NCBI GenBank assembly: GCA_002070115.1
Contig: MWCO01000043.1
Span: forward strand, 1-51,593
Reading direction: 5' to 3'
Source of the DNA: Deltaproteobacteria bacterium ADurb.Bin207
GTDB taxonomy: Bacteria; Myxococcota_A; Polyangia; Polyangiales; Polyangiaceae
DNA: 51,593 bases
Part shown: piece by piece, positions 2,650 through 34,696 of the stretch
Layout: the number at the start of each line of letters is the position of its first letter
Numbering within the stretch: position 1 is the first letter of the stretch
The notes under the pieces: generated by a model
Seen by the model: only the letters and a program-made list of their open reading frames with translations
Database searches by the model: none
Told to the model about the DNA's origin: nothing
Position numbers and translations under genes: made by a program

Positions 2650-3243
2650 TTATTTCGCGGAATTTGTGGGCGCAGGCCCAAGGCCGGGCGCGGAAGCCTC
2701 CCACACCCGCACCGCAAGCGGAGCCTTTGCCCGAAGCGGCGACACACGCATCTCATAGCGCCCCGCGCGCACACAAAGCACGGCGTCGCGCGGTGCCAAC
2801 AAGGGCGTCCGCGAGGTGACCGACTCCAGCACTTGCCCTTCGGAATCCGAAAGCACGACCGTCGCCCCCACCTGCTTTTCGGAAGACACTATCCCGATTC
2901 GTATACACCCATCCACGCTTCGCTCGATCGGCACTCGCTCGGGGGATTCGGCAAGCGTGAGAAAATCGGAAAGCCCCGGCGCGCAAAGTCGTCCCAATTC
3001 ATCGAGCTGCTCTCGAGCCGGCTTGCTCTCGTCCACATCCGACGCGCATCCCGGTTCCAGGTCGTAGGCGATCGCCGCAAGCGCCGAATCCACCGGTTTG
3101 GCCAAGCTCGACGCTTCCGCCGTCGACTGGCCTTCCACCACGGAGTTCGAGGGGATTGCCGAGGACGCCGTCGATGCATCCCCCGCGCCCGGCCGGCACC
3201 CCAGCGCCGTCACAAGACAAACGAAAGGAAAAAGCCTTTCCAT
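2650..3243 (-). CDS. Putative lipoprotein of unknown function (197 aa)
   Basis: The protein starts MERLFPFVCLVTALGCRPGA, a lipoprotein signal with the lipobox TALGC, so it should be anchored to a membrane after export. A low-complexity Ser/Ala linker follows. The mature domain has several Cys and strand-like segments near its end (QVGATVVLSDSEGQVLESV, VLCVRAGRYEMRVSPL), suggesting a small beta domain. The ATG at 3243 shares its A with the TGA of the OmpA-like gene upstream (TGATG). A GTG at 3246 is possible too. The two are therefore probably translated together. No family is recognised. Confidence 0.7.
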   Translation of the reverse strand: MERLFPFVCLVTALGCRPGAGDASTASSAIPSNSVVEGQSTAEASSLAKPVDSALAAIAYDLEPGCASDVDESKPAREQLDELGRLCAPGLSDFLTLAESPERVPIERSVDGCIRIGIVSSEKQVGATVVLSDSEGQVLESVTSRTPLLAPRDAVLCVRAGRYEMRVSPLRAKAPLAVRVWEASAPGLGPAPTNSAK

Positions 3244-4145
3244 CACCAGCCGGTCTGGCTATCGACCGCCAGCAGTTCATCGACATTGGGTTGAATGACG
3301 ATTTCGATGCGGCGATTTTTCGCTTTATTTTCCTCGGAATCGTTGGGATGCAGGGGATCGAATTCCCCGTATCCACATGCGGATAGTGTGTGAGCCGCTA
3401 CGCCGTCCTCCACGAGAATCTCGACGACTTTGATGGCTCGGGAGGCGGACAGGTACCAGTTGGAGGGATAGTTGGAGGAACGAATGGGTTCGTTATCGGT
3501 ATGCCCGGCGACCTGGAATTGGCGATTGGGGATGGTGCGAAGAATCGACGCGACTTCTTGCAAGGTGAGCTTGCCCCCCGGCTTGACGGCGGCGCGTCCG
3601 GAATCGAAGAGCACGTCGTTGGGCAGTTGCAGCACCATACGACCTTTTCGAATGTCCACTTGAAGCTGCCCGGCGTCGGCCATTTTTCGGAATCGTTCGA
3701 TGAGTTGTTTCATTTGCTGGGCGCGACGTTCGGCGGCGGCTTGGGCGCGGCGCAGTTCCTCGAGACGCGCCTTGGCGGCTTCCAGGCTGGTGGAAAGGGC
3801 GCCTTTTTCTTGCAGGAGTTTGTCGACGTTGGCGCCCATTCGCTCGAGTTCGGCGCGCAAACTCGCGTTGAACGCGGTTGATTCATCCAGGTTTTTTTGT
3901 AATTCGGCGAGGTCGTGGTTGGCCCGTTCGGTGCGGGCGTCGAGGAGCGCCTGCGTATCGACCGCTTTTTTCTCATTTTCCTTCGCTTGAGCCTGAACAT
4001 TTTGAAAATCTTGGGCGCATCGTCCCAGCGTGCCTTGGCATTGGGCCAATTCCGCGACTTTGGCGTCGAATTCGGATTTTTTGACGCAGCCGAACGTGCT
4101 GGAAGCGAGGATGGTGGTGAGGATGAAGAAGCCAACCCGACGCAT
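3243..4145 (-). CDS. OmpA-family peptidoglycan-binding lipoprotein
   Basis: The 300-residue protein begins with a lipoprotein signal (lipobox STFGC, Cys at about 20). A long heptad-rich coiled coil follows at roughly residues 25-155, with many Glu, Lys, Ala and Leu. The last about 130 residues form an OmpA C-terminal domain: FDSGRAAVKPGGKLTL, then VAGHTDNEPI, LSASRAIKVVEIL and NRRIEIVIQP. This domain normally binds meso-diaminopimelate in peptidoglycan, and the HTDN and NRRIE boxes are intact. The protein probably tethers the outer membrane to the wall, with the coiled coil spanning the periplasm. It follows the large vWA lipoprotein by 48 bp and overlaps the next gene by one base, so the three are likely one operon. 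Confidence 0.9.
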   Translation of the reverse strand: MRRVGFFILTTILASSTFGCVKKSEFDAKVAELAQCQGTLGRCAQDFQNVQAQAKENEKKAVDTQALLDARTERANHDLAELQKNLDESTAFNASLRAELERMGANVDKLLQEKGALSTSLEAAKARLEELRRAQAAAERRAQQMKQLIERFRKMADAGQLQVDIRKGRMVLQLPNDVLFDSGRAAVKPGGKLTLQEVASILRTIPNRQFQVAGHTDNEPIRSSNYPSNWYLSASRAIKVVEILVEDGVAAHTLSACGYGEFDPLHPNDSEENKAKNRRIEIVIQPNVDELLAVDSQTGW

Positions 4146-4193
4146 GGGCAGGGTCTAGCATCAGGGTTGGGAAAGGAACAAGTTGGCGGGGGA

Positions 4194-7100
4194 TTATTCG
4201 CTATTCTCGCAGGAAACCGTAAGATTCCAATGAGATAGCAGCGGGGTGCTCGTGAAGGTGGGTGGCGCGCCTCTCAAGTGCGCGCGGACGCGGAGGAACG
4301 GTTTTTTCCTTGGCTGGAGCTTCAGAGCAAGGGTTTGGTCCACATCCGCCGAGCCCGATTGGGTGTCTGGGGGACCTTCCTTGGCTCCAATGGCCTGTCC
4401 CACGAGCGAGGAGGGGCCCTCCGGTGTGGAGAACAACAACGGGACCTCCTCGGCGGTGTCGAGCCCGGCCTGCGTATCGGCCGTGGCCACAGTAAAGTCG
4501 ATGCTGGTTCCGTTGGGGGTAGTGGATTCCCAAATCCATTTGGACCAAAGGTGGCTGGATCCGGGGGGGCACATTCCCGCAGCATTGTAATCTCGCGTAA
4601 AAACGCCGTTGTTGTAGTTTCCGAGGCAATCGTAGAAAATCGCCACGGAAGCTTTGGAATCCGTGGCCAACAAATCACAACTTGCTGAACAAAGATAGAG
4701 GCGCTGCGGGTTCGCGGGGTTATCGAAGTAGTACCCATGCTCAGAACCGCAAGTGGTGCTCGAACGCAACGGGAAATCGACCGGATTACCGCCGTTTCCG
4801 GGTGAATAGCGAACAGTGACGGCTTCCGGATCGGGCACGCCCAGCGAACTGCTAGGAATCATATATTCGCAGCCCAAGGCCTGTGCTCGAATCGCTTTCA
4901 TCGCGGCCGCAAACTCGCTGGCGCTCCCACCGCTGACGATATACGCCTGCGAACTCCCGCCACTTACCGCAATCGAATTCAACCCGGACTCATATCCAAC
5001 GCCAATGACGTAGGTCGGGATGGAAGGAAATGTGTCTTCTGTCCACTTATAACGAAGGGACGTATTGCTCAACGTCCTCGCAGTATTGTAAGAGTACGTG
5101 TGCCCTTGCGTACCTGACGCATTTTCGATGCCAATCGTCGCGGATGAAGCGTCGGAATACGTCCCCGACATAGACCCATATCGGAACGATATCTCCCCAT
5201 TTTCGTGTAATACCGCCTCGAACGTACACGATCCTGTTTCCGACCAATGTCGAGCGTTTTTCCACGTGACCACGAGCCGTCGATTGGGTGCGGTACCCAA
5301 CGTTTGATAATATACGTTTCCAACCACAACCAAGTCATCCCAGAAGGGCGCAATGACGCCGTTGGGAGTGCCAGAGTCCGGAAGACTCGTGTTGATATAG
5401 CTGTTACTAGGTGGAGAGCTACCCAGCGCCACAAACCCGTTGGTATTGACATAAAACTGCGTGTAATTGACCCCATAGTACCGATAGGTAAACCCGATAT
5501 TGAAAGGACCTTTGGTTACCTCGTCTCCAGTCGCACCGGTTGCGGTTCCGGTCGTCGTCTCGAGAGCTTCATTACCCACTGTGACCGCAGGTGTCACGAT
5601 GGCCCCTCCCGCCAGCCCATCCGCTGCCACCGCCGCCACCCCCGCAATCGTCGAGCTGCAGTTATTGGGTTCCCCGTCGGTCGCCAACACGACGACGACT
5701 TTGTTATTCGGGTTTGCGATGGCACGTTGTCGAGCGAGATTGATGGCCCCTTGAAGCGCTGGCACGGTTGGCGTTCCGCCATTCGGGTTGGTGCCGTTAA
5801 GAGAGGATTGGATATCGGAGGCCTTACCGGGGAGAAGACTCCAATCGACGGAAGGGGTCATATAGTGCGATACAGGGCATTGATCGCTTTCCGGAAGGGG
5901 GAAATAATCGAGCGCCATCGTGGTTCCCGCCGCATCGGTGGATCCCGCATAAGCTCCGAGCGCTTGTTTGACCGCATTCCATCGTGTCAGGGCACCGCCC
6001 GGACACGGCGGATTTTTTCCGTTGGCACACCAGGCCATCGAGCCGGAGCGGTCCAACATGACCACCATGTCCAGTGGAACAGGGTCGACACCCACGGAGG
6101 AGGAACCGCAATTGGCTTTGCAGGCAAAGCTGAGGTCTACTCGGTAATTGGCATTGCTTTGCACGAGGTTGCAGGTTGCCGGACACAAATGCATCGCTGC
6201 CGGGTGCGGACCCGAATCATAATAATATCCGTGCCCTCCGGCACAGGCGTCCTCATTCTTATGCTTGTCCAACGGGGTGGAAGCTCCCGAACCGAGACGG
6301 TACCCCACCGTAGTCGCGTCCAGATCCAGGTTACCGTCGGCCGGAGTAGGAAGCGGGTAATCGCAACCAATTGCCCGTTTACGGATATCCTCCATGGCGG
6401 CAATGAACGAGGCAGAATTACCCGAATCGGTGATATAGGCGGTACCCGTTCCGCCATTGGCCGCAATGGTATTCAAATTGGCCACCAATCCCACACCAAT
6501 CACGTAGGTTTCGATGGGTTGGGTGTGGAATCGAATGGCTGTGTTGCTGGATAATACACTCGCGTTGTTCGAATGTTGAACGCCATCCGATCCGGAAGGG
6601 TTCTCGACTCCGATCGTGGCGGAAGAGCCATCGGAGTAAGTACCGCTAAGTGATCCATAGCGGAAAGATATATCCCCATTCTCCCAAAGCACAGCTTGCA
6701 TTGGGATACTTGCGCTCGAGTTGCTATAGTGGGATGTATTGTACCACTGCACGATGAGATAACGGTTGGGAGCCGTTCCAAACGTCTGATAATAAATATC
6801 CCCGTTGACCCTCAAGTCATCCCAAAATGGGGCGATCACACCATCGTTAGGGGCGCTGGTGCTTGGGATGGTTCCGTTCGTATAATATGCGCCCCCTGGA
6901 GCCGCGCTCACCGTCAAAAACCCGTTGGTGCTCACCCAAAACTGGGAATAATTTCCTCCGTAATAGGGAAAGGAAAATCCAATGGGGAAGGGGCCGCCCG
7001 TGGCTTCGTCGCCCGTCACCTTCGTGGCAGTTCCTGTCGAACTAATATTCACAAAAGCCTCGTTGACGACCGTAGCGCCAAGAGGATAACCCTTGTATCC

Positions 7101-8237
7101 AGCTTGCGCCGCAGCAGAAACCGTGTTAATATCGGAGCCGCATCCATTGGGATCACCATCGGTGGCCAATACGACAATCGGTTTTCGATTTGTGGTGCTG
7201 GCCGCCCGAGCACGAGCCGCGGTAATGGCTCCCCGGAGTGCGGGAAGCGTGGGCGTCCCTCCATCGGGTTTATTGGCGGAGTCTCCTAGGGAAGTCGCAA
7301 CCGCGGAAGCCCCCGCGGTCAATGTAGTCCAGTTCACCGAAGGAGTGGCGTATTGGGTCTGTTCACAGGTGTTTGAACCCGTAGGGAAGTAGTCCAACGC
7401 AAAGCCAACATTGTTAGCCGTCGAACTGGTGGTAAACGCTTTGATCGCCGTGGTGGTGACCGACCACCGTGAATTGGAATAGGGATCACATTTTGAAGTT
7501 GTATTCGGGCACCAATCCATCGACCCGGACTTATCGAGCATCAAGTAAATATCGAGTTCGACCGGCTCGACTTCGACCGTTTCCGTCACGCATTCCGTCG
7601 ACGGCCCTGCGTCCACAGGTGTGAGACCGAGTTGCAGTCCGGCATCACTGCCCACGATACCCGCATCCGGATTTGTCATGCCGTCATCTGGCTCGTCGGG
7701 GAAGTCCTGGCAGTAGGGGTCACAGGGTTCGTTGTTGCAACTCACCGGGTTATTGCTCAAGCCCATGGGCCGAAGAGGGGATTTCATGCTCGCGGTGGAA
7801 TCCCCCTGCTGGCACGGGCCCCATACGCCCGCGGAACACGTTTTCGTTCCCATGAAACACTTCGATTGCCCGGATGGCGAGGTACGAAGTTCGCCACAAG
7901 CCACCGTCTTGCCTTCCACACCGCAGGGGCAGCCGGTAGCATTGCGCGTGCAAGCGTAGCATTGGGTGGTCACAGACGGGTCGCCGTCGTCGCAGTCGGG
8001 CCCATTTCCACACCCAACGCCAAAGCCATCGCCATCCTTGTCCAGGCAACTCGAGGCCCATTGCTCCGCTGGTTCACCGTTGAGGGGATCTTCCGAAGCG
8101 GACGGCGACGAGCACGCCAGCCCCCAGAAAGTAAGCAGCCCGAGCAGCAAGAGCAGCGCAGGGGTCCGAAACGATGTTAGCTGGGCTGTTCGCTTGGTCA
8201 CGAGCCACCTCCGAAACGACGGGCGTATCGTCATCAT
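4194..8237 (-). CDS. Giant vWA lipoprotein with two split vWA domains (1347 aa)
   Basis: The start ATG at 8237 (or the adjacent 8234) overlaps the TGA of the upstream gene. A basic N-terminus and a hydrophobic stretch lead to the lipobox GLAC (Cys 42). A Cys-rich region with Ca-site-like runs (DKDGDGFGVGC) spans about 60-180. Two von Willebrand A units follow. Unit 1 has MIDAS motif DKSGS at 235-239 and ATDGDPNGC near 358. Unit 2 has DRSGS at 729-733 and ATDGEPNNC. In each, before the strand TYVIGVG, about 190 residues are inserted that look nidogen-like (VSTNGF, IAPFWDDL, AVLWENGDISFRYGS, ATIGVEN). Each unit ends with a Cys-rich segment (GCDYPLP, HGYYYD, LCPATC). The protein is probably surface-exposed and adhesive or metal-dependent; its partner is unknown. 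Confidence 0.85.
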   Translation of the reverse strand: MMTIRPSFRRWLVTKRTAQLTSFRTPALLLLLGLLTFWGLACSSPSASEDPLNGEPAEQWASSCLDKDGDGFGVGCGNGPDCDDGDPSVTTQCYACTRNATGCPCGVEGKTVACGELRTSPSGQSKCFMGTKTCSAGVWGPCQQGDSTASMKSPLRPMGLSNNPVSCNNEPCDPYCQDFPDEPDDGMTNPDAGIVGSDAGLQLGLTPVDAGPSTECVTETVEVEPVELDIYLMLDKSGSMDWCPNTTSKCDPYSNSRWSVTTTAIKAFTTSSTANNVGFALDYFPTGSNTCEQTQYATPSVNWTTLTAGASAVATSLGDSANKPDGGTPTLPALRGAITAARARAASTTNRKPIVVLATDGDPNGCGSDINTVSAAAQAGYKGYPLGATVVNEAFVNISSTGTATKVTGDEATGGPFPIGFSFPYYGGNYSQFWVSTNGFLTVSAAPGGAYYTNGTIPSTSAPNDGVIAPFWDDLRVNGDIYYQTFGTAPNRYLIVQWYNTSHYSNSSASIPMQAVLWENGDISFRYGSLSGTYSDGSSATIGVENPSGSDGVQHSNNASVLSSNTAIRFHTQPIETYVIGVGLVANLNTIAANGGTGTAYITDSGNSASFIAAMEDIRKRAIGCDYPLPTPADGNLDLDATTVGYRLGSGASTPLDKHKNEDACAGGHGYYYDSGPHPAAMHLCPATCNLVQSNANYRVDLSFACKANCGSSSVGVDPVPLDMVVMLDRSGSMAWCANGKNPPCPGGALTRWNAVKQALGAYAGSTDAAGTTMALDYFPLPESDQCPVSHYMTPSVDWSLLPGKASDIQSSLNGTNPNGGTPTVPALQGAINLARQRAIANPNNKVVVVLATDGEPNNCSSTIAGVAAVAADGLAGGAIVTPAVTVGNEALETTTGTATGATGDEVTKGPFNIGFTYRYYGVNYTQFYVNTNGFVALGSSPPSNSYINTSLPDSGTPNGVIAPFWDDLVVVGNVYYQTLGTAPNRRLVVTWKNARHWSETGSCTFEAVLHENGEISFRYGSMSGTYSDASSATIGIENASGTQGHTYSYNTARTLSNTSLRYKWTEDTFPSIPTYVIGVGYESGLNSIAVSGGSSQAYIVSGGSASEFAAAMKAIRAQALGCEYMIPSSSLGVPDPEAVTVRYSPGNGGNPVDFPLRSSTTCGSEHGYYFDNPANPQRLYLCSASCDLLATDSKASVAIFYDCLGNYNNGVFTRDYNAAGMCPPGSSHLWSKWIWESTTPNGTSIDFTVATADTQAGLDTAEEVPLLFSTPEGPSSLVGQAIGAKEGPPDTQSGSADVDQTLALKLQPRKKPFLRVRAHLRGAPPTFTSTPLLSHWNLTVSCENSE

Positions 8238-9079
8238 GGCACCTGCACCGCTTTCATCTGTCCACTCAAAGAAACAAACCACGCGTTGTATTTCCCACCA
8301 TCAAACGAGGCAGTAGGAGGACCGAGAAGGTCATCCAAGGTAGAACCGTGAAATACGATGTTGGCAGCCGATGAGGGGATCAGAAACGAGAATTCTTCGG
8401 CGGAAAATACGGCACACTTATCGTCGAATTGACCGCCGAAGGAGAATTGAACGACAGGAATATCCACGGTGCCGAAACGCATGGCAAACGAGGCATCGGC
8501 TTGGGCATAGATGGAGTGTTTTTCCCCAAGGCGGAAGGGAGCAGAAGCGGGCGTGCCATCGAAAGAGGGAGGATCGCCCTGGGGGGTGCCGATTTTCAGG
8601 ACCCAATCCGCTTCTTGGGTCGAGTCCAGGCCATCGAAAACAACCATGAAGGGCCCGGGAACGGTCAACGCATTCATTTCGGCATTGAAGGCGGTAGCAA
8701 AATCCGTGGGGGTAGGTCCTCCAGCGTATAATTGATCACCCACGACCGCGGACCGAGGGGCATCGCAAGGATCCACGGGAACAACGATATCCAGCGTAAC
8801 ATCTTGGGCCGCATTGTCAGCTTCGGCATCCACGGGTGAATCCGGCTGCGCGTCACCCGATATTCCCCCCTGTCCTGCGGGGCCTTGGTCGGGACCTGCA
8901 TCACCGACGCTTCCGCCCGTATTGGAACCACCGGCTCCCGCGGTTCCACCAGAGCCTGCGGTTCCACCAGAGCCTGCGGTCCCGAAAGGATTCGCGCCGC
9001 CCGAAGGCTTATCGTCGCTCGAGCAACCCAACGTCAGCACCAGTATACCCCAAGCTAGGATGCAACCATACACTCGCAT
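8234..9079 (-). CDS. Putative lipoprotein with TAGSGG-repeat linker (281 aa)
   Basis: ATG 9079 is chosen because AAGGGAA lies just upstream and the product then starts MRVYGCILAWGILVLTLGCS, a lipoprotein signal with lipobox TLGC. Behind the Cys is a flexible linker with repeated TAGSGG units, common in exported myxobacterial proteins, and an acidic stretch. The C-terminal about 170 residues form one beta-rich domain (PFMVVFDGLDSTQEADWVLK, VDIPVVQFSFGG) of no family I can name. Its TGA overlaps the start of the giant vWA lipoprotein (ATGATGA), so the two are likely co-translated and may work together at the cell surface. Confidence 0.8.
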   Translation of the reverse strand: MRVYGCILAWGILVLTLGCSSDDKPSGGANPFGTAGSGGTAGSGGTAGAGGSNTGGSVGDAGPDQGPAGQGGISGDAQPDSPVDAEADNAAQDVTLDIVVPVDPCDAPRSAVVGDQLYAGGPTPTDFATAFNAEMNALTVPGPFMVVFDGLDSTQEADWVLKIGTPQGDPPSFDGTPASAPFRLGEKHSIYAQADASFAMRFGTVDIPVVQFSFGGQFDDKCAVFSAEEFSFLIPSSAANIVFHGSTLDDLLGPPTASFDGGKYNAWFVSLSGQMKAVQVP

Positions 9080-12356: not shown

Positions 12357-13640
12357 ATGAGTGTGTGTTGGCGCTGTGGCGCACCAATCAATCCAAACGA
12401 TAAATTCTGCGGTGTTTGTGCGGCTCCCATGGCGCAAGGTGCGCCTGGTCTGTCTGGTCAACCGCCGCAGCCCATGCCGGGACCGCCTGCCGCGTATTCT
12501 CCTCCTCAGCCAGTTGCTCCGGCACCGTATGCGCCCATGCCGGGACCTGCTCCGGCGGCACCGCAAGGCGTACCAGGACCTGCACCGTATCTGCCGCAGG
12601 GCGTACCGGGACCTGCACCGTATCCGCCGCAGGGCGTACCGGGACCTGCGCCGTATCCGCCGCAAGGCGTACCAGGACCTGCACCGTACCCGCCGCAAGC
12701 CGTACCGGGACCTGCGCCGTACCCGCCGCAAGCCGTACCGGGACCTGCTCCTTATCCGCCCCAGGGGGTGCCTGGACCTGCTCCTTATCCGCCGCAGGGG
12801 GTGCCTGGACCTGCTCCTTATCCGCCCCAGGCACCGCCGGGAGCTGCGCCCAATTATTCGCCGCCTCAGCCAGCACCGTTCAACCCACAGCCGGAGCCTG
12901 GTCCTTATGCACCCCAACCGGTGCCAGGCATGCCTCCGTATTCACCTCCCCAGCCCATGGATTTAGGGGGATATCCTTCCCCCGGTGCCGCGCTGCCCGC
13001 CGACCCCTATGGTGTTACGGGCACTCCACCGAACCACGGGCCGGGCCATGGTTCACCTCCGGCGCTGGCGGATATGCGCATCGCGGGAAGCGAAGCATTC
13101 GAAGCCACTGCCTTTTCCCCGGGGGGACCGGCTCCTTTGCCTCCCACCGGCGCGATGAGTCCTTTCCCTTCGCCCGTCGAGGCCCCGGCCATGGCTCCCC
13201 CGGGCGTCGCAGGTCCTTCCGCGGGCATGTATAGTCCGCCGCCCCATCCGGCGGAACCGTCCGCGGGTGTGCAGGGGCTCGATCCGATGGCAGAAACCAA
13301 CAAAGCGGGTGTCGGCAGGATTCTGCGAGGATTTCTGTATAGCTTCCACACCAAAACCGAGGGTGAGTTTTGGCCGCTTTTCGCTGGGCAGAACTCCATT
13401 GGACGTGCGGACGCGGGTGAGGATCTGGATATTTTCATCGCGGATCCCACCACATCCTCACGGCATGCCACGATCATTTCGGAGGTTCCCGGTCGGTTTG
13501 TTCTGCAAGATGCAGGTTCGACCAACGGAACGTTCGTCAACGACCAGCCTGTCGGTTTCCAAGGATCCGTCGAGATTCACGATGGTGATCGAATCCGTCT
13601 CGGCGGGTACAACGCGGCAGTTCGATTCATCACACGATAG
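12357..13640 (+). CDS. Zinc-ribbon, proline-rich repeat, FHA-domain protein (427 aa)
   Basis: ATG 12357 follows AAGAGGA and begins MSVCWRCGAPINPNDKFCGVC, a four-Cys zinc ribbon. Residues about 25-330 are low-complexity Pro/Gly/Ala/Tyr sequence, including nine 11-residue repeats of the type VPGPAPYPPQG. The last about 90 residues form an FHA domain: GQNSIGRADAGEDLDIFI, TTSSRHATI, DAGSTNGTFVNDQ and IHDGDRIRLGGY. The Arg, Ser-Arg-His and Asn-Gly positions that bind phosphothreonine are present. It lacks a signal peptide, so it is likely cytoplasmic. It heads the set that continues with a vWA/FHA protein, a PP2C phosphatase and an FHA-ABC transporter. Confidence 0.88.
   Translation: MSVCWRCGAPINPNDKFCGVCAAPMAQGAPGLSGQPPQPMPGPPAAYSPPQPVAPAPYAPMPGPAPAAPQGVPGPAPYLPQGVPGPAPYPPQGVPGPAPYPPQGVPGPAPYPPQAVPGPAPYPPQAVPGPAPYPPQGVPGPAPYPPQGVPGPAPYPPQAPPGAAPNYSPPQPAPFNPQPEPGPYAPQPVPGMPPYSPPQPMDLGGYPSPGAALPADPYGVTGTPPNHGPGHGSPPALADMRIAGSEAFEATAFSPGGPAPLPPTGAMSPFPSPVEAPAMAPPGVAGPSAGMYSPPPHPAEPSAGVQGLDPMAETNKAGVGRILRGFLYSFHTKTEGEFWPLFAGQNSIGRADAGEDLDIFIADPTTSSRHATIISEVPGRFVLQDAGSTNGTFVNDQPVGFQGSVEIHDGDRIRLGGYNAAVRFITR
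12537..12833 (+). repeat. In-gene tandem repeat, nine units of 33 bp
   Basis: Nine consecutive 33-bp units encode (V/M)PGPAP-x-x-PQ-(G/A). Units differ at several synonymous positions (for example CCGTATCCGCCG against CCTTATCCGCCC), so the array is not brand-new. Copy number is likely to vary between strains. Confidence 0.9.
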
Positions 13641-13669
13641 CTTCTGGATGACCGCGGAGAACACAGTCC

Positions 13670-15937
13670 ATGCGAATACGACATCTCATCGTTGCTGCCC
13701 TTTGGGCGTCTCTGTTGCTGGTTCTGACCGGACCGGTTTTCGCGGCCCCCATGGCCCGTATCCTTCGCATCGATCCGATAGCGGCAACGACCGATGGCGC
13801 ACCCGTTCTCACCCTCGTGGTCGACTTGGTGCAATCCAAACGCGTCAACGCGGTCACCGGTGAGTGTGCGGGCAATCTGGATTGCGAGTCCGAGAGACTC
13901 GAGAAACCCAAAGCGCTCTTTCAGCCATTTCCCTACCCGGAAGGCAACGCCAACTTTCTCGTGACCATCGATGGTTCGGCCTTTCCTACCAAGTACGTAT
14001 GGAAAGGACGTTGGGGAGAAAATCAGCAAATGCCGGGGGTTGGGACCGCGTGGCTCATCCTTGTCGATGCGGGCGGCTCGATGTCTTCGCGAATTGGCGA
14101 TGCGAAGGCCATTGCCAATGCGTTCGTCAATGCCATGGGTGCCAACGACATCATCAACATCATGGCCTTCGATGGTAAGCAAGTCGTCAAGGATTCCAAG
14201 TGGTTATCCGCGAGCCGCAAAGGCGAGGCGAGTGCTTTTGTCAATGGCATTGGAGCCAATTACGGGAGTTGGGGACGAACGCGTCCGCTTGCCAACATCA
14301 TTCGCGCGGGTGTGAACGACGCCTTCAACGAGCTTGGCAACGTGGGCAGTGACATCGTCGTGCCGATGCATCAGGCTCTCGTGGTCATTTCCGATGGCGC
14401 GGCGGGAACCGATCCATCTTCGACGGGGCCTGGGGCATTGATGCTCACGCAGCATCTGAGCAAAGGCAGGTTTCCGGAGGACAACAGCGCGCTTCCGAAA
14501 ACGCCGCTTCCTGTTATTTCGATTTGGTTTCCGCGTACGCAAATTGAAGAACTCGCGCAAAACGCGCAAGAGTTCATGATGAATCTCGCCAACCCGGAGT
14601 TTGGCGGCTTTTATACGAACGTGAAGGCGGGGGGAGCGGGACGGGCGCCGCAGATCGTCAATGCCGTGCGCGATCGTTTCAACCACATGCATATCGTCAA
14701 GTACCGGGTGTCATGCATTGCCTCCAACGTGCAGCAGACTTTTCAGCTCGTATTTACCAACATCACGCCGATGATTGGGGGAGATGCCACCTTCAAGGAC
14801 GTTCCGGTGGGCATCGATCCGAGCACGTGGCCGTTGGACATCAACGTGCAGTACACGCTCGACCGGGCGAAAAAGAATCCCGTGCATCCGGGAGGAAAAT
14901 TTCGGGTGTATGGTGACTTCTGTTGGAGTGGGGACAAGTCCCGCGCGGAAGTCTATTTCTTGCCGAAAAATCAACCCGCGCCACCGAGTGTCAAAGGTGG
15001 TGACATCGAAACCGCAAAACGCGCGCAGCAGCAGCTCATTGCGATGAACATGCGCGGCACGGCCAAAGAGGCTTCGGACACGTTCGTGGAATTCGAAGCT
15101 CCGAACGATGAAAAAATTCTGCTGGGCAGCGGTGATAAAGCGGTCGTACGCATGGTCATTTACGACAACAAGGCGCGTCGAGCGAGCGCCGCGGATGCGC
15201 AGCATATCCTCACGCTCAAAGGCTCCACCGCGCCGTTTCCTTTCCTATGGGTAGGAGGCGGAGTGTTTGGAGGCCTCGTGGTGTTGTTGTTGCTCGTGGC
15301 GATCGTGCGAGCGGGAGGAAGTAAAAAACAGCGACGAGCCGGGGCGGCGCCGCCAGCTCCGGTGGTGGCGGGATATGGCGCACCGCAAGCGCAACCCTAC
15401 GCTGGAGCGGCTGCACCGGTAGCCCAACCTTACGCGGGGGCGGCTCAACCGGCGGCCCAACCTTATGCGGGGGCGGCTCAACCTGGAGCGCAGCCTTATG
15501 CGGGGGCGGCTCAACCGGCGGCCCCGGCTGCCAATGCCGGTTTCATGTACGGTGCCGGGCAACAACAAGGTTTTGGGCTTACGGGAGCCCAACCCCAGCA
15601 CCAGGCTCCGCCTCCCAATCCCTATGCGGCACCGGGCATGGGTGGCTCCAAAGCCATCCTTTCGGGAGCGGCGGGCAACTTTCCAATCCCTGCCGGTTCC
15701 GAAGTGTTCGTGGGTCGGGATTCCGCGCGTTGCCAAGTCATTTTGCAGGAACTTCGCGTTTCGGCCACCCACGCGGCCGTCCGTTTCGACGGTAGTCAGG
15801 TGCTGGTGCGGGATATGGGAAGCAACAACGGCACCTCGGTCAATGGCACTAGAATTCCCCCGAATATCGATACCCCGGTTCCCGTGGGATCCATTCTTCG
15901 CTTCGGACCCGTCGAGTTTATGGTTCGAGTAGAGTAG
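13670..15937 (+). CDS. Transmembrane vWA/FHA signalling protein (755 aa)
   Basis: A Sec signal peptide (MRIRHLIVAALWASLLLVLT, cleavage after VFA) directs residues about 27-520 outside the cytoplasmic membrane. This part contains a vWA-like domain, LILVDAGGSMSSRIGDA at about 125-140, with Gly in place of the first MIDAS Ser (DxGxS instead of DxSxS). One transmembrane helix is at about 522-545 (FPFLWVGGGVFGG onward). It is followed by a basic stop (GSKKQRR), QPYAGAA repeats (573-617) and a C-terminal FHA domain (EVFVGRDSARCQV, SATHAAVRF, GSNNGTSVNGT). The layout would place a sensor outside and a phosphothreonine reader inside. It begins 29 bp after the zinc-ribbon/FHA gene and ends 12 bp before the PP2C gene, so it is part of one operon. 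Confidence 0.87.
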   Translation: MRIRHLIVAALWASLLLVLTGPVFAAPMARILRIDPIAATTDGAPVLTLVVDLVQSKRVNAVTGECAGNLDCESERLEKPKALFQPFPYPEGNANFLVTIDGSAFPTKYVWKGRWGENQQMPGVGTAWLILVDAGGSMSSRIGDAKAIANAFVNAMGANDIINIMAFDGKQVVKDSKWLSASRKGEASAFVNGIGANYGSWGRTRPLANIIRAGVNDAFNELGNVGSDIVVPMHQALVVISDGAAGTDPSSTGPGALMLTQHLSKGRFPEDNSALPKTPLPVISIWFPRTQIEELAQNAQEFMMNLANPEFGGFYTNVKAGGAGRAPQIVNAVRDRFNHMHIVKYRVSCIASNVQQTFQLVFTNITPMIGGDATFKDVPVGIDPSTWPLDINVQYTLDRAKKNPVHPGGKFRVYGDFCWSGDKSRAEVYFLPKNQPAPPSVKGGDIETAKRAQQQLIAMNMRGTAKEASDTFVEFEAPNDEKILLGSGDKAVVRMVIYDNKARRASAADAQHILTLKGSTAPFPFLWVGGGVFGGLVVLLLLVAIVRAGGSKKQRRAGAAPPAPVVAGYGAPQAQPYAGAAAPVAQPYAGAAQPAAQPYAGAAQPGAQPYAGAAQPAAPAANAGFMYGAGQQQGFGLTGAQPQHQAPPPNPYAAPGMGGSKAILSGAAGNFPIPAGSEVFVGRDSARCQVILQELRVSATHAAVRFDGSQVLVRDMGSNNGTSVNGTRIPPNIDTPVPVGSILRFGPVEFMVRVE

Positions 15938-15949
15938 TCTCGACGGGCC

Positions 15950-17218
15950 ATGGTCATGCCCGTGAATCAACCACAACGGGTTTCGTTAGCAATCGCATCT
16001 TTGTCCGATCCTGGACTCGATCCAGAAAAGCAGGTCAACGAAGACGCTTGCGAAGCTCGCCAACTTCCCATCGGGACACTGCTCGTCGTTTGTGATGGGA
16101 TGGGGGGGCACGTGGCTGGAAAGGAAGCCAGCGAAGCGGCTCTACGAACGATTTTCGACCAAATGCAAGCCGCAAGTCCTGACGCTCATCCTGGGCTTGC
16201 GCTTAAAAACGCCATTGCTCACGCGGGGAAAGTTGTCTTCGACCTGGGCGGCCCCTCGGCGATGTTGCGTCCTGGCTCGACGGTAGTCGCGGTGTTATCT
16301 CATCCCGCTGGGTCGGAAATCGCCCATGTGGGAGATAGCCGTGCTTACTTGATTCGGGATTCGCAGATCCATCCTCTGACCCGGGACCATTCGATGGTGC
16401 AGCAAATGGTGGACGCCGGATTGCTCACGGAGGAGGAAGCGAAACACCACCCGGATGCCAATAAAATCACACGGGCGCTTGGAATGAGTGCGATCGTGGA
16501 TGTCGAAATCCGTCCTTCTCCTCTCGCTCATCAGCAAGGAGATATTTTTCTATTGGCCACCGACGGCTTATGCGATCTGGTGGAGCCTCACGAGATGTTG
16601 AGCATGACGATGCAAGCTCGTCAGGTGGGGAGTCTGGACCAGGCGTGTCAGCAGATGATAGCCCTTGCGAACTCGCGGGGAGGTCATGACAACACCACGG
16701 TATTGCTTGGTGAAATCCTGAGTTGTCCCGCGTGTTCGGAATCTCGTTCGCGCACCCTCGTTACCGATGATCCGATTGCGGTGACTGGCAGCGCAGCGGT
16801 GGCGGCCGTGCCTGGCGCGATGCTTCCCACGGTCGTGGATGGCAACGACCTGGGCGTCTCGATGCCAACGTGGGTGGATAATGGCACGGCTCAGGATGGG
16901 CGGGCTTCGGAAGCCGAGCTGCTTCAACGGCGAAAACTGACGTGGTTCGTGGTGGGAATGGCGTTGATGGTTTTTGGGATTGCCGCGGTCGTCATTTCGG
17001 TGTGGTGGGCCTGGCAGGCTACGGCATCGGAGGAAGATGAAGTCGGTATGCGCGAAAAAGCGAGTTTTACCGTCGTGATGGCGCGGTCCATGACCGAACG
17101 GTGCCGTGAGTGCGCTGGTACCGGGCCGGACGCAAGCGGGATGATCGCCCAACGAAGGATGCGGTCCTGGATATCCGATGGGTGTCCATCGACTGACGGA
17201 AATGGGTATTTCACATGA
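15950..17218 (+). CDS. PP2C-family Ser/Thr protein phosphatase with C-terminal TM
   Basis: The catalytic domain fills about residues 8-265. VNEDACEA carries the first metal-binding Asp, DGMGGHVAGKEAS the second. AHVGDSRAYLI, TRDHSMVQQMVDAG, LLATDGLCDLVE and GGHDNTTVLLGEI complete the PP2C signature with all metal-binding Asp in place. A linker leads to one transmembrane helix (WFVVGMALMVFGIAAVVISV) at about 325-345 and a short Cys-containing tail. The enzyme should remove phosphate from Ser/Thr residues, here most simply from ligands of the FHA proteins beside it. Its TGA overlaps the next ATG (ATGA at 17215-17218). ATG 15956 is an alternative start. Confidence 0.93.
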   Translation: MVMPVNQPQRVSLAIASLSDPGLDPEKQVNEDACEARQLPIGTLLVVCDGMGGHVAGKEASEAALRTIFDQMQAASPDAHPGLALKNAIAHAGKVVFDLGGPSAMLRPGSTVVAVLSHPAGSEIAHVGDSRAYLIRDSQIHPLTRDHSMVQQMVDAGLLTEEEAKHHPDANKITRALGMSAIVDVEIRPSPLAHQQGDIFLLATDGLCDLVEPHEMLSMTMQARQVGSLDQACQQMIALANSRGGHDNTTVLLGEILSCPACSESRSRTLVTDDPIAVTGSAAVAAVPGAMLPTVVDGNDLGVSMPTWVDNGTAQDGRASEAELLQRRKLTWFVVGMALMVFGIAAVVISVWWAWQATASEEDEVGMREKASFTVVMARSMTERCRECAGTGPDASGMIAQRRMRSWISDGCPSTDGNGYFT

Positions 17219-20202
17219 TTGCAGGCTTTGGAAAGCAGACGATTGTTCTGGGCAGTGCTGCGGATTGTGACATCGTGTTGGCGGGGCCGGGCGTGGCGCC
17301 GCAGCACGCGCGCATCGTCCACCAGGGAGCAGGGCAACTTTTGTTCGTTGATGGTGGGGCAGGGCCATCTTTTGCCGGCGGGCAGATGGTTCCCAAAGGT
17401 GGCAGCGTTCCCTTTGATCTTCGAACTCCATTTGCGTGCGGTCAGGTGGCGATACCGCTCAACCATCCCGCGATTGCGTTGATGTTGATGGAGCGAGGCA
17501 GCGTGCAAGCGCCGCCGGGACAGATCATCGTTGGACGGGATCCGGCGCGCTGTTCGCTCGTCATCCGACATGCTTCGGTTTCCTCACGTCATGCGACGGT
17601 GATGCTCGATCGGATGGTGGTCGTGGATGAGGGGTCGACGTCGGGCACCTATTTGGGCTCCGGTCGCATTGCATCGGAAACGCCAACACCGGTGGACCCG
17701 AACGGGGTGATAGCGTTTGGGCCGGTGGTGGTACCGGTGGCCACGTTGGGACAGATCGTGCAGGCGATGGCGGGGGTGCAAGGGCAACCGATGGTTTCCC
17801 AAGCGGTTCAGGCGGCGCAGGCATCCTTCGTTTCGCAGGCGATGCAAGGGCAAGCGCCCATGGTATCGCAGCAGGTGCCGGCGCCGGTCTCGGCGGGGCA
17901 TAAGAAAAATCGTACGGTCATCGGCAACCTGGACTTTCAAAAACCTTTTCAGACGATTGGACGAACGCCGGACAACGACATCGTGCTGTCGCATCCGCAA
18001 GTGTCGAGTCGTCATGCGGTATTGGTCAAATCTGGCAATCAGGTATTCATCGAAGACCGTGGCAGTGCCAACGGCACCTATGTGAAGGGGCAGAGAATCG
18101 CTCCTGGTGTGAAAGTACCGGTGCAGCACGGTGAGCGCATCTACCTGGGTCCGATGCCGTTGGTCATCCACATGCCCGAGGAGGGAGGAGGGCAGCTTCT
18201 CATCCCCGACGTCAGCAAGTGGCAAGGCCGTCCGCTTTATGAAATCGAAGCCTGGGAATTATTTCTCGAGGTACCCGATCGGGATAATCCATCCACGAAT
18301 AAGGTATTGCTGGACAAGATTTCATTCAAGGCATTGCCTGGCGACATGATCGCGCTCATGGGGCCCTCGGGTGCCGGAAAAACCACCTTACTACTAGCCC
18401 TAAACGGATACTTGCCCCCTTCGTCGGGTCTCGTTCGAATCAACGGCGAGAATCTCTATGCGATCTACGACAACTTGAGGGGTTCGATCGGATACGTGCC
18501 GCAAGACGACATCGTGCATCCGGAGTTGACGGTATTCGAAGCGGTTCGTTACTCGGCTCGCTTTCGGTTACCGCCGGATTATTCCGATGAGGAGATCGAT
18601 CAGCGAGTCGATCAAACGCTCAAAGAGCTTGGTCTCGAGGGGGTTCGTAACCTTCAAATCGGCAAGCCGGAAAAGAAAATTTTGTCGGGGGGGCAGAGAA
18701 AGCGTGTCAACATTGCGCTGGAATTGGTGACGGATCCGGTCATCTTGTTCCTCGACGAGCCCACCAGCGGGCTTGCGGCCGATGATACGACAGCGTTGAT
18801 CAATCTTCTTGCGGACCTGGCGAAGGCGACGGGCAAGACGATCATCATGACGATTCACCAGCCGGCGAAAGACGAGTTCGAGCGATTCAATCTTGCGCTC
18901 ATCCTCGGTTATGGGGGTGTGCCCATGTTTTATGGTCCGACGTCGCCGGATGCGTATCGCTTTTTCGGATCGTTTTTGGAGACGCAGGGCAAGCCGAATA
19001 CGGTCGACAATCCCCGGGATATGTTTGACATTCTCAACCAGCGGGAGGGACCGATTTACCAGCAAATGCTGGCGCAAAATCCCAATACGCCGCGGGGGGC
19101 GGCACGGCAATACGCGGCCAAATTATGGGAAGCGGAATACAAAGCGAGCGCGGTATACCAAAAGATGTATGCGCCTCCGCGAGCGGTTGGCACGGGAGGG
19201 GGGCAGAATTATGTGCCACCGGGGGCGCCGAAAACCAAAGGGCAGCTTCGTCTGCTCATGTCTCGCTACTTCACGGTCAAGTGGAGAGATCGCTCCGGCA
19301 CGGCGATCATGTTTTTGCAAGCGCCCATCATTGGCGTTCTGCTCGCCCTGGTGTTCGGTGGGCAGAAGGATTCCATCCCCTATTGGTGCCTGGGCGCGCT
19401 GCAAGAGCTTTCCAAACGCGCCGGCCAGCTTGGCTCCACGGGGGACTTGCTCAGCAACATGCAGGCCACGAGAGACAACTCCGCGGCCGCGTTTTTTGTC
19501 GTCGTGGCCGCCGTATGGTTCGGAACCTCCAACGCCGCACGCGAAATCGTAAGCGAGCGCGCCATCTACCTGCGGGAAAGGATGGTGAACCTGAAGCTAT
19601 TCAACTACGTGGCTTCCAAATACATCCTGCTTTGCGTGTTTTGCGTCCTGCAATGCACCATGCTGCTCGGCATCGTTTTCTTCTCCTTGGGATTTCACGG
19701 AGGGATCGAAGCTTTCCTCTGGGAACTCAGCTACTTGAACGCCGTAGCTTTCATGTCCGCAGCCTTGGGCTTGCTACTTTCCACGATGGTGACGTCCAGT
19801 GAGGCGGCTCAGGCCCTCACGCCCATCGCGCTCATTCCCCAGGTGGTTCTCGGCGGACTCATGGTTCCCATGACCACCAATCCCTTGCTCAAATGGCCGA
19901 TGCTCATCATCCCGGCGCGCTGGGGCTTTCAGGGGCTCGTGGCGCACGAGCGCAAGGCCATCGCGAAAGACCCCGCTTGGCTCATCGACATTGGAAAGCC
20001 GGACATCAACAGCGCGGCTGACTTCGTTTCCGCGGGCAAGTTCGAATGTGCGACCGCGCAAATCGCTGGCGACAACTTCAACGGTGCCTGGGGCTTCACC
20101 GACTACGACCTGTTCTGGGTTCCTTTCGCGGTGATGGGAGGCATGACATTCGCCACGCTGATCGCGCTACTCATTATCCTGAAACACAGAGATCCTGTGT
20201 AA
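17215..20202 (+). CDS. FHA-ABC transporter, ABCG-like half-transporter (995 aa)
   Basis: Three FHA-type domains open the protein. One at about 1-95 is degenerate (VLGSAADCDIVLAGPG, PQHARIV). The second is at 100-180 (IIVGRDPARCSLVI, SVSSRHATV, STSGTYLG). The third is at 235-325 (TIGRTPDNDIVLSHP, VSSRHAVLV, GSANGTYVKG). The ATPase domain follows: Walker A GPSGAGKTT near 381, Q-loop GYVPQDDI, signature LSGGQRKRVNIA near 489, Walker B VILFLDEPTSG and switch TIHQP. The C-terminal third has about six membrane helices of the ABC-2 type. Order and motifs match bacterial ABCG-like exporters; the substrate is unknown. Intact FHA boxes in domains 2 and 3 suggest control by Thr phosphorylation, and the PP2C gene is translationally coupled to it. 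Confidence 0.93.
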   Translation: MIAGFGKQTIVLGSAADCDIVLAGPGVAPQHARIVHQGAGQLLFVDGGAGPSFAGGQMVPKGGSVPFDLRTPFACGQVAIPLNHPAIALMLMERGSVQAPPGQIIVGRDPARCSLVIRHASVSSRHATVMLDRMVVVDEGSTSGTYLGSGRIASETPTPVDPNGVIAFGPVVVPVATLGQIVQAMAGVQGQPMVSQAVQAAQASFVSQAMQGQAPMVSQQVPAPVSAGHKKNRTVIGNLDFQKPFQTIGRTPDNDIVLSHPQVSSRHAVLVKSGNQVFIEDRGSANGTYVKGQRIAPGVKVPVQHGERIYLGPMPLVIHMPEEGGGQLLIPDVSKWQGRPLYEIEAWELFLEVPDRDNPSTNKVLLDKISFKALPGDMIALMGPSGAGKTTLLLALNGYLPPSSGLVRINGENLYAIYDNLRGSIGYVPQDDIVHPELTVFEAVRYSARFRLPPDYSDEEIDQRVDQTLKELGLEGVRNLQIGKPEKKILSGGQRKRVNIALELVTDPVILFLDEPTSGLAADDTTALINLLADLAKATGKTIIMTIHQPAKDEFERFNLALILGYGGVPMFYGPTSPDAYRFFGSFLETQGKPNTVDNPRDMFDILNQREGPIYQQMLAQNPNTPRGAARQYAAKLWEAEYKASAVYQKMYAPPRAVGTGGGQNYVPPGAPKTKGQLRLLMSRYFTVKWRDRSGTAIMFLQAPIIGVLLALVFGGQKDSIPYWCLGALQELSKRAGQLGSTGDLLSNMQATRDNSAAAFFVVVAAVWFGTSNAAREIVSERAIYLRERMVNLKLFNYVASKYILLCVFCVLQCTMLLGIVFFSLGFHGGIEAFLWELSYLNAVAFMSAALGLLLSTMVTSSEAAQALTPIALIPQVVLGGLMVPMTTNPLLKWPMLIIPARWGFQGLVAHERKAIAKDPAWLIDIGKPDINSAADFVSAGKFECATAQIAGDNFNGAWGFTDYDLFWVPFAVMGGMTFATLIALLIILKHRDPV

Positions 20203-32437: not shown

Positions 32438-34528
32438 TCAAATACCCGAAGGGGTATAGGTGGGTTTTGGTTTTGGCTTGCCCCCGGGTCTTCCGCCGGC
32501 CGGTTTGGTGGTGGCGGGTTTCGGACTGGCCGCGGTTTCGCTTTCCTTTTCTGTTTTCGAAGGAGCATCGACGGCGGCGTCTTTGGGCGTATCCGCGGCG
32601 GCTTCAACCACGTCGGGGGGCGCGGCTTCAGGAGTCTCGGTGGGTGTTGGCACGGGCTCGGGCACCGCGGTGGTTGGGGTCGAATCCAGCGCTGCATTCG
32701 CACTCGAAGGCGTGGATTCCTTGCCTGATTTCGAGACGATGAGACCAAGGACCAGCACCAGCGCGGCAACGGCCACGACGCCCCCCACGATGAACATCAT
32801 CTTTCGTTTTCGCTCATCGGGATTTTTTTCGAGGTCGGTGTCGGGCAAGGAAGGAAAAGCTGCGGTTGGCGAGATGGCCGCAGGCGGTTCTTGCTTGTCG
32901 GAATCGACAGCGGCCTCCACGGACGTTTCGGGTTCCGGGGAAGCTGCGGAAAGCGCGGGTTCCGGGGTCTTATCGGATTGCGCAAGCTGGGCTTCGGGCG
33001 CCGGCGCGGTTTCGGGCGCTGGTTTTTCCGGAGCAACGGGCGCGAAGGGCTGTTCGAAAGGATTGGAAGAAACTTCGGGCGGGCTTTGTCTCGCGGCGTC
33101 CTGCGCCAAAGCTTTTTCCGTGCGTGCGGCGTCGAATTGGGTAGGTTCCGACGCGGGGTCCGACTTTGTATCTTCCGCCAACGATGCGAGTGCATCCAGG
33201 GGCATGGGAACCGGAGGGAGATCGGAAGGTGGTTTCGAAGGTGGGGAAGACGGTTGTTTTGGCGCGGTCACGGGCGCATTCGCGGCTGGTGGCGGTTTTC
33301 GACTGCTGGGGGGCTGTTTGATAGCGATCCGCGGCGGGGGCACCGGAGGAGAAAACTGTCCTGATACTTCTTCGAGCAAATCCTCTTGTTCTTCCAGGTC
33401 ATCGCCTTCGCCAATGTCCACATCGACATCGACACTCACGGGGATGACTTCGGGTGCCGTAGACGAACGGGTCGCGCTGGCGGAATCCTCTTCCCGAGGC
33501 TCATTCAACGACGCGCGTTCGATCGCGGAGCGTCGGGTTTCCAAGCTCGATCCCACGAGTTCCGCCAGATATGCCCCTACTTCTTTGCGGGTGCCCACTT
33601 GTGCTCCCACGGCTTTTCGAAACTGCGTCGCCAAGTCCTGGAGCGAAGAAAACCGGCTATTGATGGTTTTTTGAAGGCACCGTTCCACCACGTCCGCCAG
33701 CGGCTTGCTGATGGCTGGAGCAATCCCCATCGATGCATCGTCGAGCCGTGGAGCTTGCTCTTCGAGCACGCGCTTCGCGACGGCCTCGCCAAGTTTGTCG
33801 TCCGTAGCCCCATCGACGACCAAAAACAGCGGTTTGTTGGTCAACATTTCCCACAGCACGACACCCGTGGCAAAGACATCCGATCGGGCGTCGATTTTCT
33901 TATCCGAAAGCAATTCTGGGCTTTGGTAGGCAATGATTTTTTCGTGACGTGCGAGCGAAGGAATTCTTCCGATCTCCGTGGTGACACCTGGTTCCATGAG
34001 GCGAGTCTCACCCGAGGTGGTGACGAGAACGGCGTCGGGAAGCAAGCCACCGTGCATGTTTGCGGCCAATTCCGGTTTGCGCAGAGCCGCGCCGATCAAG
34101 TTGACGAGAGCTTGAATCAGATCGGTGGCGATACGAAACACGACAGGTTGGGGGATGGGGGCATTGCGCAAGCGCGCGAGTTGAATCAAAGAGCGCAACG
34201 GTTCGCCTTCTTGGTATTCGGAGACGATACCGACGCGGCCCGAGGACTCGACCCTGTCGATGATCGGAAGGGTTCCTGGCCGTGTGACGCCTTCCCACAC
34301 CGACGCGGCGTTGAGAATCGGTTTTGCGACGGCATCCTCGTCGCCGGGGCTGACGACGATCCGTCGCATGGAATAGACTTTTCCGAGATTCGGCGGTGCG
34401 GTAGTCATACAAGCCCAGGAAGAACCGTATTCCGCGCGCGAAAGAACGCAGATCAATTCAAACCGGCCAAGCTGCTCCAAACCACCGATTCGAGAGGGGG
34501 TTGCAGGCCGTTCCGAGAAATCATCCAT
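32438..34528 (-). CDS. Membrane-anchored pseudokinase with long low-complexity tail (696 aa)
   Basis: ATG 34528 has AGGA at good spacing. Residues about 15-300 follow the Ser/Thr-kinase fold, but the catalytic sites are gone. The glycine loop is LSRAEYGSSW, the VAIK Lys position reads VYSMRRIVV, the HRD loop is HGGLLPDAVLV and DFG is replaced by EPG. Structural landmarks remain: YQSPELL (the APE box) and DARSDVFATGVVLWEML (helix F). A Pro/Glu/Ala-rich region covers about 350-590. One transmembrane helix near 600 (MMFIVGGVVAVAALVLVLGL) is followed by an Ala/Pro/Thr-rich and finally Lys/Pro-rich tail. It may serve as a regulatory scaffold in phospho-signalling, perhaps with the FHA proteins, but no link is shown by position. 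Confidence 0.88.
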   Translation of the reverse strand: MDDFSERPATPSRIGGLEQLGRFELICVLSRAEYGSSWACMTTAPPNLGKVYSMRRIVVSPGDEDAVAKPILNAASVWEGVTRPGTLPIIDRVESSGRVGIVSEYQEGEPLRSLIQLARLRNAPIPQPVVFRIATDLIQALVNLIGAALRKPELAANMHGGLLPDAVLVTTSGETRLMEPGVTTEIGRIPSLARHEKIIAYQSPELLSDKKIDARSDVFATGVVLWEMLTNKPLFLVVDGATDDKLGEAVAKRVLEEQAPRLDDASMGIAPAISKPLADVVERCLQKTINSRFSSLQDLATQFRKAVGAQVGTRKEVGAYLAELVGSSLETRRSAIERASLNEPREEDSASATRSSTAPEVIPVSVDVDVDIGEGDDLEEQEDLLEEVSGQFSPPVPPPRIAIKQPPSSRKPPPAANAPVTAPKQPSSPPSKPPSDLPPVPMPLDALASLAEDTKSDPASEPTQFDAARTEKALAQDAARQSPPEVSSNPFEQPFAPVAPEKPAPETAPAPEAQLAQSDKTPEPALSAASPEPETSVEAAVDSDKQEPPAAISPTAAFPSLPDTDLEKNPDERKRKMMFIVGGVVAVAALVLVLGLIVSKSGKESTPSSANAALDSTPTTAVPEPVPTPTETPEAAPPDVVEAAADTPKDAAVDAPSKTEKESETAASPKPATTKPAGGRPGGKPKPKPTYTPSGI

Positions 34529-34696
34529 GGTAAATTCCTGATCCTCATGGTCGCACGACACCATTCGAAGCGATCATGAAGGAACGATACTTGGAATTGG
34601 ACACGCAACCGGTCAGCAATGTCAAGAAATGCGGCGCAAACAGCGAGCATGGAGGGCAAGGAAAACCGAGGTGCCATGGTTCCCACCGTGCCGAAT

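Follow-up and report, generated by a model that had tools for sequence, protein, structure and literature searches.

A conserved four-gene operon of myxobacteria that associates FHA domains, a PP2C phosphatase and an ABCG-type transporter

In this work, we focus on four consecutive genes, called here A to D, of a 51,593-nucleotide stretch of DNA (the window), and we ask how a zinc-ribbon protein, a membrane protein with a large ectodomain, a phosphatase and a transporter might function together through phosphothreonine (pThr) and the FHA domains that can read it. The wiring between kinases and FHA domains is almost unknown in myxobacteria, and the 6.5 Mb genome of the window alone gives 146 kinase, 18 PP2C and 44 FHA matches. 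Against this background, the operon is a compact and conserved unit in which the readers and the eraser can be named, phosphosites are predicted and there is a candidate for the kinase; all of these are testable. The most likely reading, to which we would give a probability of about 0.45, is that of an ABCG exporter with a regulatory complex assembled by pThr, in which the PP2C would be both the docking platform and the eraser.

Anatomy and conservation of the operon

The four genes occupy positions 12357-20202 of the + strand, their open reading frames lying where the initial annotation had placed them, and the Pfam matches agree with its succession of a zinc-ribbon/FHA protein, a vWA-TM-FHA protein, a PP2C and a triple-FHA transporter, the vWA label being the weak one. 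The gaps between A and B (29 bp) and between B and C (12 bp) are short and C overlaps D by 4 bp, so that the anatomy is that of an operon. Gene A (427 aa, 12357..13640, +) starts at the ATG at 12357, downstream of a GAGG ribosome-binding-like site, and encodes an N-terminal zinc ribbon (Zn_Ribbon_1, 12366-12428), a long Pro-rich linker and a C-terminal FHA (13395-13604). Gene B (755 aa, 13670..15937, +) encodes a signal peptide, a large vWA-like ectodomain, a TM segment (15236-15307, residues 523-546), a Pro/Ala linker and a canonical FHA (15707-15907; Pfam E 1.7e-14), VWA_3 remaining sub-threshold. Gene C (422 aa, 15950..17218, +) carries a PP2C core (16025-16594) followed by a disordered linker, a TM segment (16937-17008, residues 330-353) and a short extracytoplasmic tail. 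Gene D (995 aa, 17215..20202, +) is an ABCG-type half-transporter of architecture FHA1-FHA2-FHA3-NBD-TMD, which Pfam sees as three FHA stretches followed by ABC_tran and ABC2_membrane (18310..20199, +; Walker A at 18361-18387, signature at 18682-18696). N-terminal FHAs, NBD and TMD are found in one chain and in the ABCG order in 13 out of 13 members; the best NCBIfam match of D is an ABCG-type pigment permease family, far below its cut-off, and its PDB matches include human ABCG2 and ABCG1. With defence-system models, the proteins of the operon gave weak, generic ABC and PP2C matches only.

The conservation of this arrangement was examined by searching for B orthologues in 59 related genomes and for D in 145 genomes of the order, the gene sets being scored by reading about 20 kb around the places of B and D. 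Apart from the window, 24 loci of two families have A-B-C-D in this order and on one strand, and it was rearranged in none, which bears out the expectation of a fixed gene order in relatives. This recurrence is far beyond chance, and the four genes travel together in a group of soil myxobacteria. The other loci contain partial sets (ABC, BCD, AB, ABD, ACD, BD) in which the order is kept, and many of them are cut by contig ends. C is missing from two loci and B from three that keep A, C and D, so that not every part is essential. D is present in 62 of the 69 genomes of the window's own family (f1), in 4 of the 5 of its sister family (f8) and in 12 genomes of a third family (f6), where it stands alone among unrelated genes, with no A, B or C nearby. 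In f1, the ribosomal protein gene rplS often precedes the operon.

Several variants of the locus were also encountered. In one genome (G010, L058 4488-10428), C and D are separated by three inserted genes, two of them for Ser/Thr kinases whose membrane segments are N-terminal and the third for another membrane protein. In another (G022, L038 8729-13630), there is a second B-D pair in which B has no FHA and from which A and C are absent; a 1753-aa open frame had suggested a B-D fusion in this genome, which was rejected on account of a stop codon between the two genes. Solitary B paralogues devoid of FHA occur in four loci (L052, L061, L063, L068). The gene after D in one clade (L044 15500-18202, L083 11508-14243) encodes a TonB-dependent receptor whose N-terminus carries a TonB_C domain and which may be an outer-membrane partner.

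FHA domains and the ectodomain of gene B

As had been annotated, Pfam finds five domains of the FHA type in the operon besides the single phosphatase and the single transporter, but the five are not equivalent. FHA1 of D (17242..17397, +) has GS in place of GR, APxH and no NGT. Its phosphate-binding Arg is replaced in 37 of 37 aligned module sequences, by Ser in 35 of them, and the Ser of SxxH and the NG are absent from this domain in the window and in nearly all relatives. As it is otherwise clearly conserved, FHA1 is a pseudo-FHA that has been maintained and is not in decay. FHA2 (17524..17721, +) retains Arg, Ser and His (37/38) with Ser in place of Asn (STSGT in the window; 35/38). FHA3 (17953..18150, +) is a canonical pThr-binding FHA by sequence, with Arg, Ser and His each in 38 of 38 sequences and Asn in 37, and the same residues in f6. 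The FHA of B keeps Arg in 27 of 28 and Asn in 26 of 28 aligned orthologues, and that of A has GR in all 35 and SxxH in 33 of 35, the two f8 members having Gln for His, with STNG recognized by eye in nearly all orthologues. GR, SxxH and NG are thus found together in FHA3 of D and in the FHAs of B and A. Since FHA1 has lost its pThr-binding residues, four of the five domains, and not five, are plausible pThr readers.

Two findings would have spoken against the initial annotation, namely a lack of joint conservation of the genes and the loss in relatives of the FHA residues needed for binding. Overall neither was made, because the genes are conserved together and the binding residues are kept in FHA3 of D, in B and in A; the loss is confined to FHA1 of D and, for the Asn, to FHA2. 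The best PDB match of the FHA region of D is ArnA; 6CAH, the structure of Rv1747 FHA-1, is matched weakly (E 1.3e-5). A structure prediction of FHA1-3 from two sequences had a mean pLDDT of 37.8 and was excluded from fold searches.

The assignment of the ectodomain of B is a remote one. The window protein scores 24.5 bits with VWA_3, under the curated cut-off of 27, and among 29 full-length orthologues only one or two match any VWA model at E 1e-3 or better. When the limit was relaxed, VWA_2 matched 5 of 18 ectodomains at the same place, with E values down to 4e-5. The MIDAS motif is degenerate (VDAGGSM, 14063-14083, in the window): DxSxS is found in 3 and the loop-3 Asp in 4 of 29 orthologues. 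A profile of the ectodomain had no meaningful match in the PDB, and a model of it (two sequences, mean pLDDT 30.5, no fold search) shows an order of strands and helices that is compatible with a vWA and proves nothing. We therefore call this domain vWA-like, the matches being weak and the MIDAS degenerate, and it may best be described from its sequence as a remote, MIDAS-degenerate member.

The external vWA sensor that had been annotated is accordingly weakened, and sensing is a conjecture. It nevertheless underlies a different reading of the operon, in which an external signal would be received by the vWA-like domain of B and, through the FHA of B and a kinase, would switch the transport by D on or off. 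Such a sensory switch agrees with the signal peptide, ectodomain, TM and canonical FHA of B, with the extracellular vWA of PpkA, a kinase of a T6SS pathway, which was also proposed to be a sensor (PMC3224232), and with the two genomes in which B adjoins D without A and C (B2-D2 in G022, BD in G132). On the other hand, the vWA assignment is weak at the level of sequence, the MIDAS is degenerate, three loci have A, C and D but no neighbouring B, and paralogues of B lacking the FHA exist away from the operon. On balance we find this switch unlikely.

The linker of the phosphatase and the kinase question

The metal-binding and catalytic acidic residues of the PP2C are invariant in 33 orthologues, and the linker that separates the catalytic core from the TM segment has a disordered composition and a variable length. 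In the window (16748..16879, +), it carries two motifs that resemble FHA ligands, TVVD (16829-16840) and TWVD (16868-16879), and TVVD, TLVD, TVID, TMID, TIVD and TWVD recur among orthologues, their copy number and position varying between genomes. In 26 linkers, T..[DE] was observed 59 times for 16.9 +/- 3.7 expected, and T[VILM][VILMF][DE] 18 times for 0.5 expected, counts that none of 2000 shuffles reached; as the linkers are related sequences and not independent samples, this test overstates the significance. The Ser counterpart of the motif is absent from the 26 linkers, five of which lack TxxD/E altogether. In the other PP2C tails of the window's genome (those longer than 30 residues, 1007 residues in total), T..[DE] occurs 4 times for 9.0 expected. 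The enrichment is thus specific to this PP2C and to Thr. The pTxxD type with a strict preference for Thr is a classical kind of FHA ligand, as exemplified by the binding of LEV(pT)EADATFAK by Rad53 FHA1 (PMC3146460). Elsewhere in the same genome (L102, G000:C4:140000-143200), a PP2C gene likewise stands after a gene that has two FHA matches.

The motifs of the PP2C linker suggest, tentatively, a self-erasing phospho-scaffold: the linker of the membrane PP2C would be a multivalent TxxD/E platform on which the FHAs of the exporter, of the vWA-like receptor and of the zinc-ribbon adaptor dock, the eraser would be the hub, and a zinc-ribbon kinase would act in trans. We hold this to be possible rather than probable. 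One may also suppose that the FHAs are mainly constitutive assembly modules independent of phosphorylation, and that the PP2C erases marks in general and happens only to be encoded in the same operon. FHA1 of D, a conserved FHA that is non-binding by sequence, fits this supposition, as does the ratio of 146 kinases to only 18 PP2Cs in the genome, from which it follows that each PP2C probably serves many kinases. It leaves two features unaccounted for, since the binding residues of FHA3, B and A are almost always kept, needlessly for constitutive contacts, and since the TxxD/E enrichment is peculiar to this PP2C and to Thr. We regard purely constitutive modules as improbable.

Candidate phosphosites may also be found outside the PP2C. 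The linkers of A and B are poor in Thr (1.5% and 2.6%, respectively), and in A these residues often lie within F-x-x-T-A-[FY]-x-P or LPPTGAM; in the window, such islands (13101..13163, +) are EATAFSP (13101-13121) and LPPTGAMSP (13137-13163), which recur in orthologues. B has FGLTGAQP (15572..15595, +), a candidate of the same kind, and [FY][GP][LV]T[GSTN], a motif defined post hoc, is found in 16 of 30 B orthologues for 0.05 expected after shuffling. T[AP][FY]APP occurs about nine times in the linker of B in f8 (L087 4013-6790), and gene A of f1 carries this same short motif (T[AP][FY]xP).

The initial annotation had stressed that there is no local kinase. Indeed, no catalytic kinase adjoins the operon in the window; but with 146 kinases in the genome an absent neighbour is no anomaly and a present one would be weak evidence, and in f8 a kinase does adjoin gene A. 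A pseudokinase of the window (32438-34564, -), which is membrane-anchored with a long Pro/Ser/Thr linker and a TM, was rejected as a partner: it matches Pkinase (E 1.2e-14) but has neither HRD nor DFG, and it lies 12 kb away. Because chance kinase neighbours are expected at such a density (146 in 6.5 Mb), only the conserved kinase of f8 was used as evidence. It is divergently encoded beside gene A in the three of three loci that reach far enough (L066, L067, L087; 72-84% identical), and its N-terminus is a zinc ribbon that resembles the one of gene A. When it was compared with six f1 genomes, exactly one match with E 1e-55 or better was found in five of them, among 150 scored kinase candidates, while G031, one of the six, gave none. 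In the window's genome, the single clear orthologue is G000:C50:32873-33817 (50% identity), which is the best candidate for the writer, by association only. The f8 neighbour has one clear orthologue in most f1 genomes tested, but at the cut-off used order-wide the kinase was found in only 37 of 69 f1 genomes, along with 4 of 5 in f8 and none of the other 71, and it was not found in some genomes that have the full operon.

Proposed mechanism and relation to known systems

The operon itself, its conserved order, the retention and loss of FHA binding residues and the enrichment of the linker motif are the observations that speak for the pThr-assembled exporter complex; phosphorylation, the partners in FHA-linker binding, clustering and the control of export are what we infer from them. 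D would be an inner-membrane ABCG exporter, probably a homodimer. A Ser/Thr kinase encoded elsewhere, of which G000:C50:32873-33817 is the best candidate, would phosphorylate Thr residues of the TxxD/E motifs in the linker of the membrane-anchored PP2C, and probably also Thr residues in the linkers of A and B. The predicted pThr sites could be bound by FHA3 of D and by the FHAs of B and A, perhaps also by FHA2 of D, so that the exporter, the vWA-like receptor, the zinc-ribbon adaptor and the phosphatase would assemble or cluster at the membrane. The PP2C would then strip these marks, and as its own docking sites would be among them, it would be scaffold and eraser at once. FHA1 of D would be structural and would no longer read pThr. 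The gating of transport by phosphothreonine that had been proposed goes further than the sequence evidence.

The exporter of this operon has a well-studied counterpart. Rv1747 of Mycobacterium tuberculosis is an FHA-FHA-ABCG exporter that is required for an export function related to the cell wall and implicated in the export of a cell-wall component; it is phosphorylated by PknF, which is encoded in its own operon, and its reversible clustering is controlled by PknF and PstP (PMC3908365, PMC5549992, PMC9312465). Both systems have a single-chain ABCG half-transporter with several N-terminal FHAs and a linker between them, a pairing with a kinase and a reversal by a PP2C being predicted here, and one FHA of D at least, FHA3, has kept its pThr-binding residues. 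The differences concern the FHAs of D, which are three with the first a pseudo-FHA, its linker, in which T234 is the only conserved Thr, and the partners: in Rv1747 the kinase is in the operon and the PP2C outside, whereas here the PP2C is inside and the kinase outside (beside the operon in f8), and vWA-like/FHA and zinc-ribbon/FHA proteins are added. This means that the phospho-controlled FHA-ABCG exporters of mycobacteria have relatives in a distant phylum, with different partners.

The comparison raises the question of whether D regulates itself as Rv1747 does. Just ahead of FHA3, D has a K-x-x-T-[VIM]-x-G motif (17902..17925, +) whose Thr234 and Gly237 are invariant in 46 of 46 D proteins, f6 included. 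Phosphorylation of this Thr could allow the FHAs of neighbouring transporters to bind it and to cluster, with A, B and C as accessories and the lone D of f6, which has none of them nearby, as the ancestral state; Rv1747 does cluster through its FHA and phospholinker, and PstP reverses it (PMC9312465). However, T234 falls where strand 1 of FHA3 should be in the alignment with ArnA, so that it may be either a phosphosite or a structural residue. Moreover, the linker between FHA2 and FHA3 is present but variable, and unlike that of Rv1747 it has no conserved Thr other than T234 at the edge of FHA3, which suggests that phospholinker self-binding in the manner of Rv1747 is not conserved. Self-regulation of D appears to us quite improbable, more so than the sensory switch or the constitutive modules.

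The nearest circuit to the pThr-assembled complex is the threonine phosphorylation pathway of T6SS, which comprises the kinase PpkA with an external vWA, the PP2C PppA and Fha1, and for which condensates have been reported (PMC3224232, PMC12607579). There as here, a vWA or vWA-like ectodomain, a PP2C (with its catalytic residues, as in PppA) and an FHA reader are found in one locus that serves an export machine. Here, by contrast, the output is an ABCG transporter, the vWA-like domain is fused to an FHA and not to a kinase, and the kinase is outside the locus; no T6SS structural component was found among the 20 window genes scanned. As for the regulators with a single FHA (GarA, OdhI, FhaB), the FHA of A matches the FhaB and OdhI models weakly, far under their curated cut-offs, and A is not an orthologue. 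In the archaeal ArnA-ArnB system, an FHA protein and a vWA protein are paired in one phospho-regulated unit that is controlled by kinase and phosphatase; it acts in the repression of archaellum genes and involves no transporter (PMC6509490).

Thus, with an exporter that resembles Rv1747 and a circuit that resembles PpkA/PppA/Fha1, the idea belongs to a known kind. The description of the system as little-described holds for the four-gene set, on which no publication was found in the open-licence literature, and not for FHA-ABCG exporters as such, Rv1747 with PknF and PstP being well studied. What appears to be new here is the four-gene assembly, together with a phosphatase on whose own linker the docking tags seem to lie. 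Finally, another part of the window (3243-8282, -) encodes a 1362-aa protein with VWA_2 and nidogen-like domains, which adjoins an OmpA-family protein; some f6 loci (L074, L078, L081) have a distant relative of the 1362-aa protein near D.
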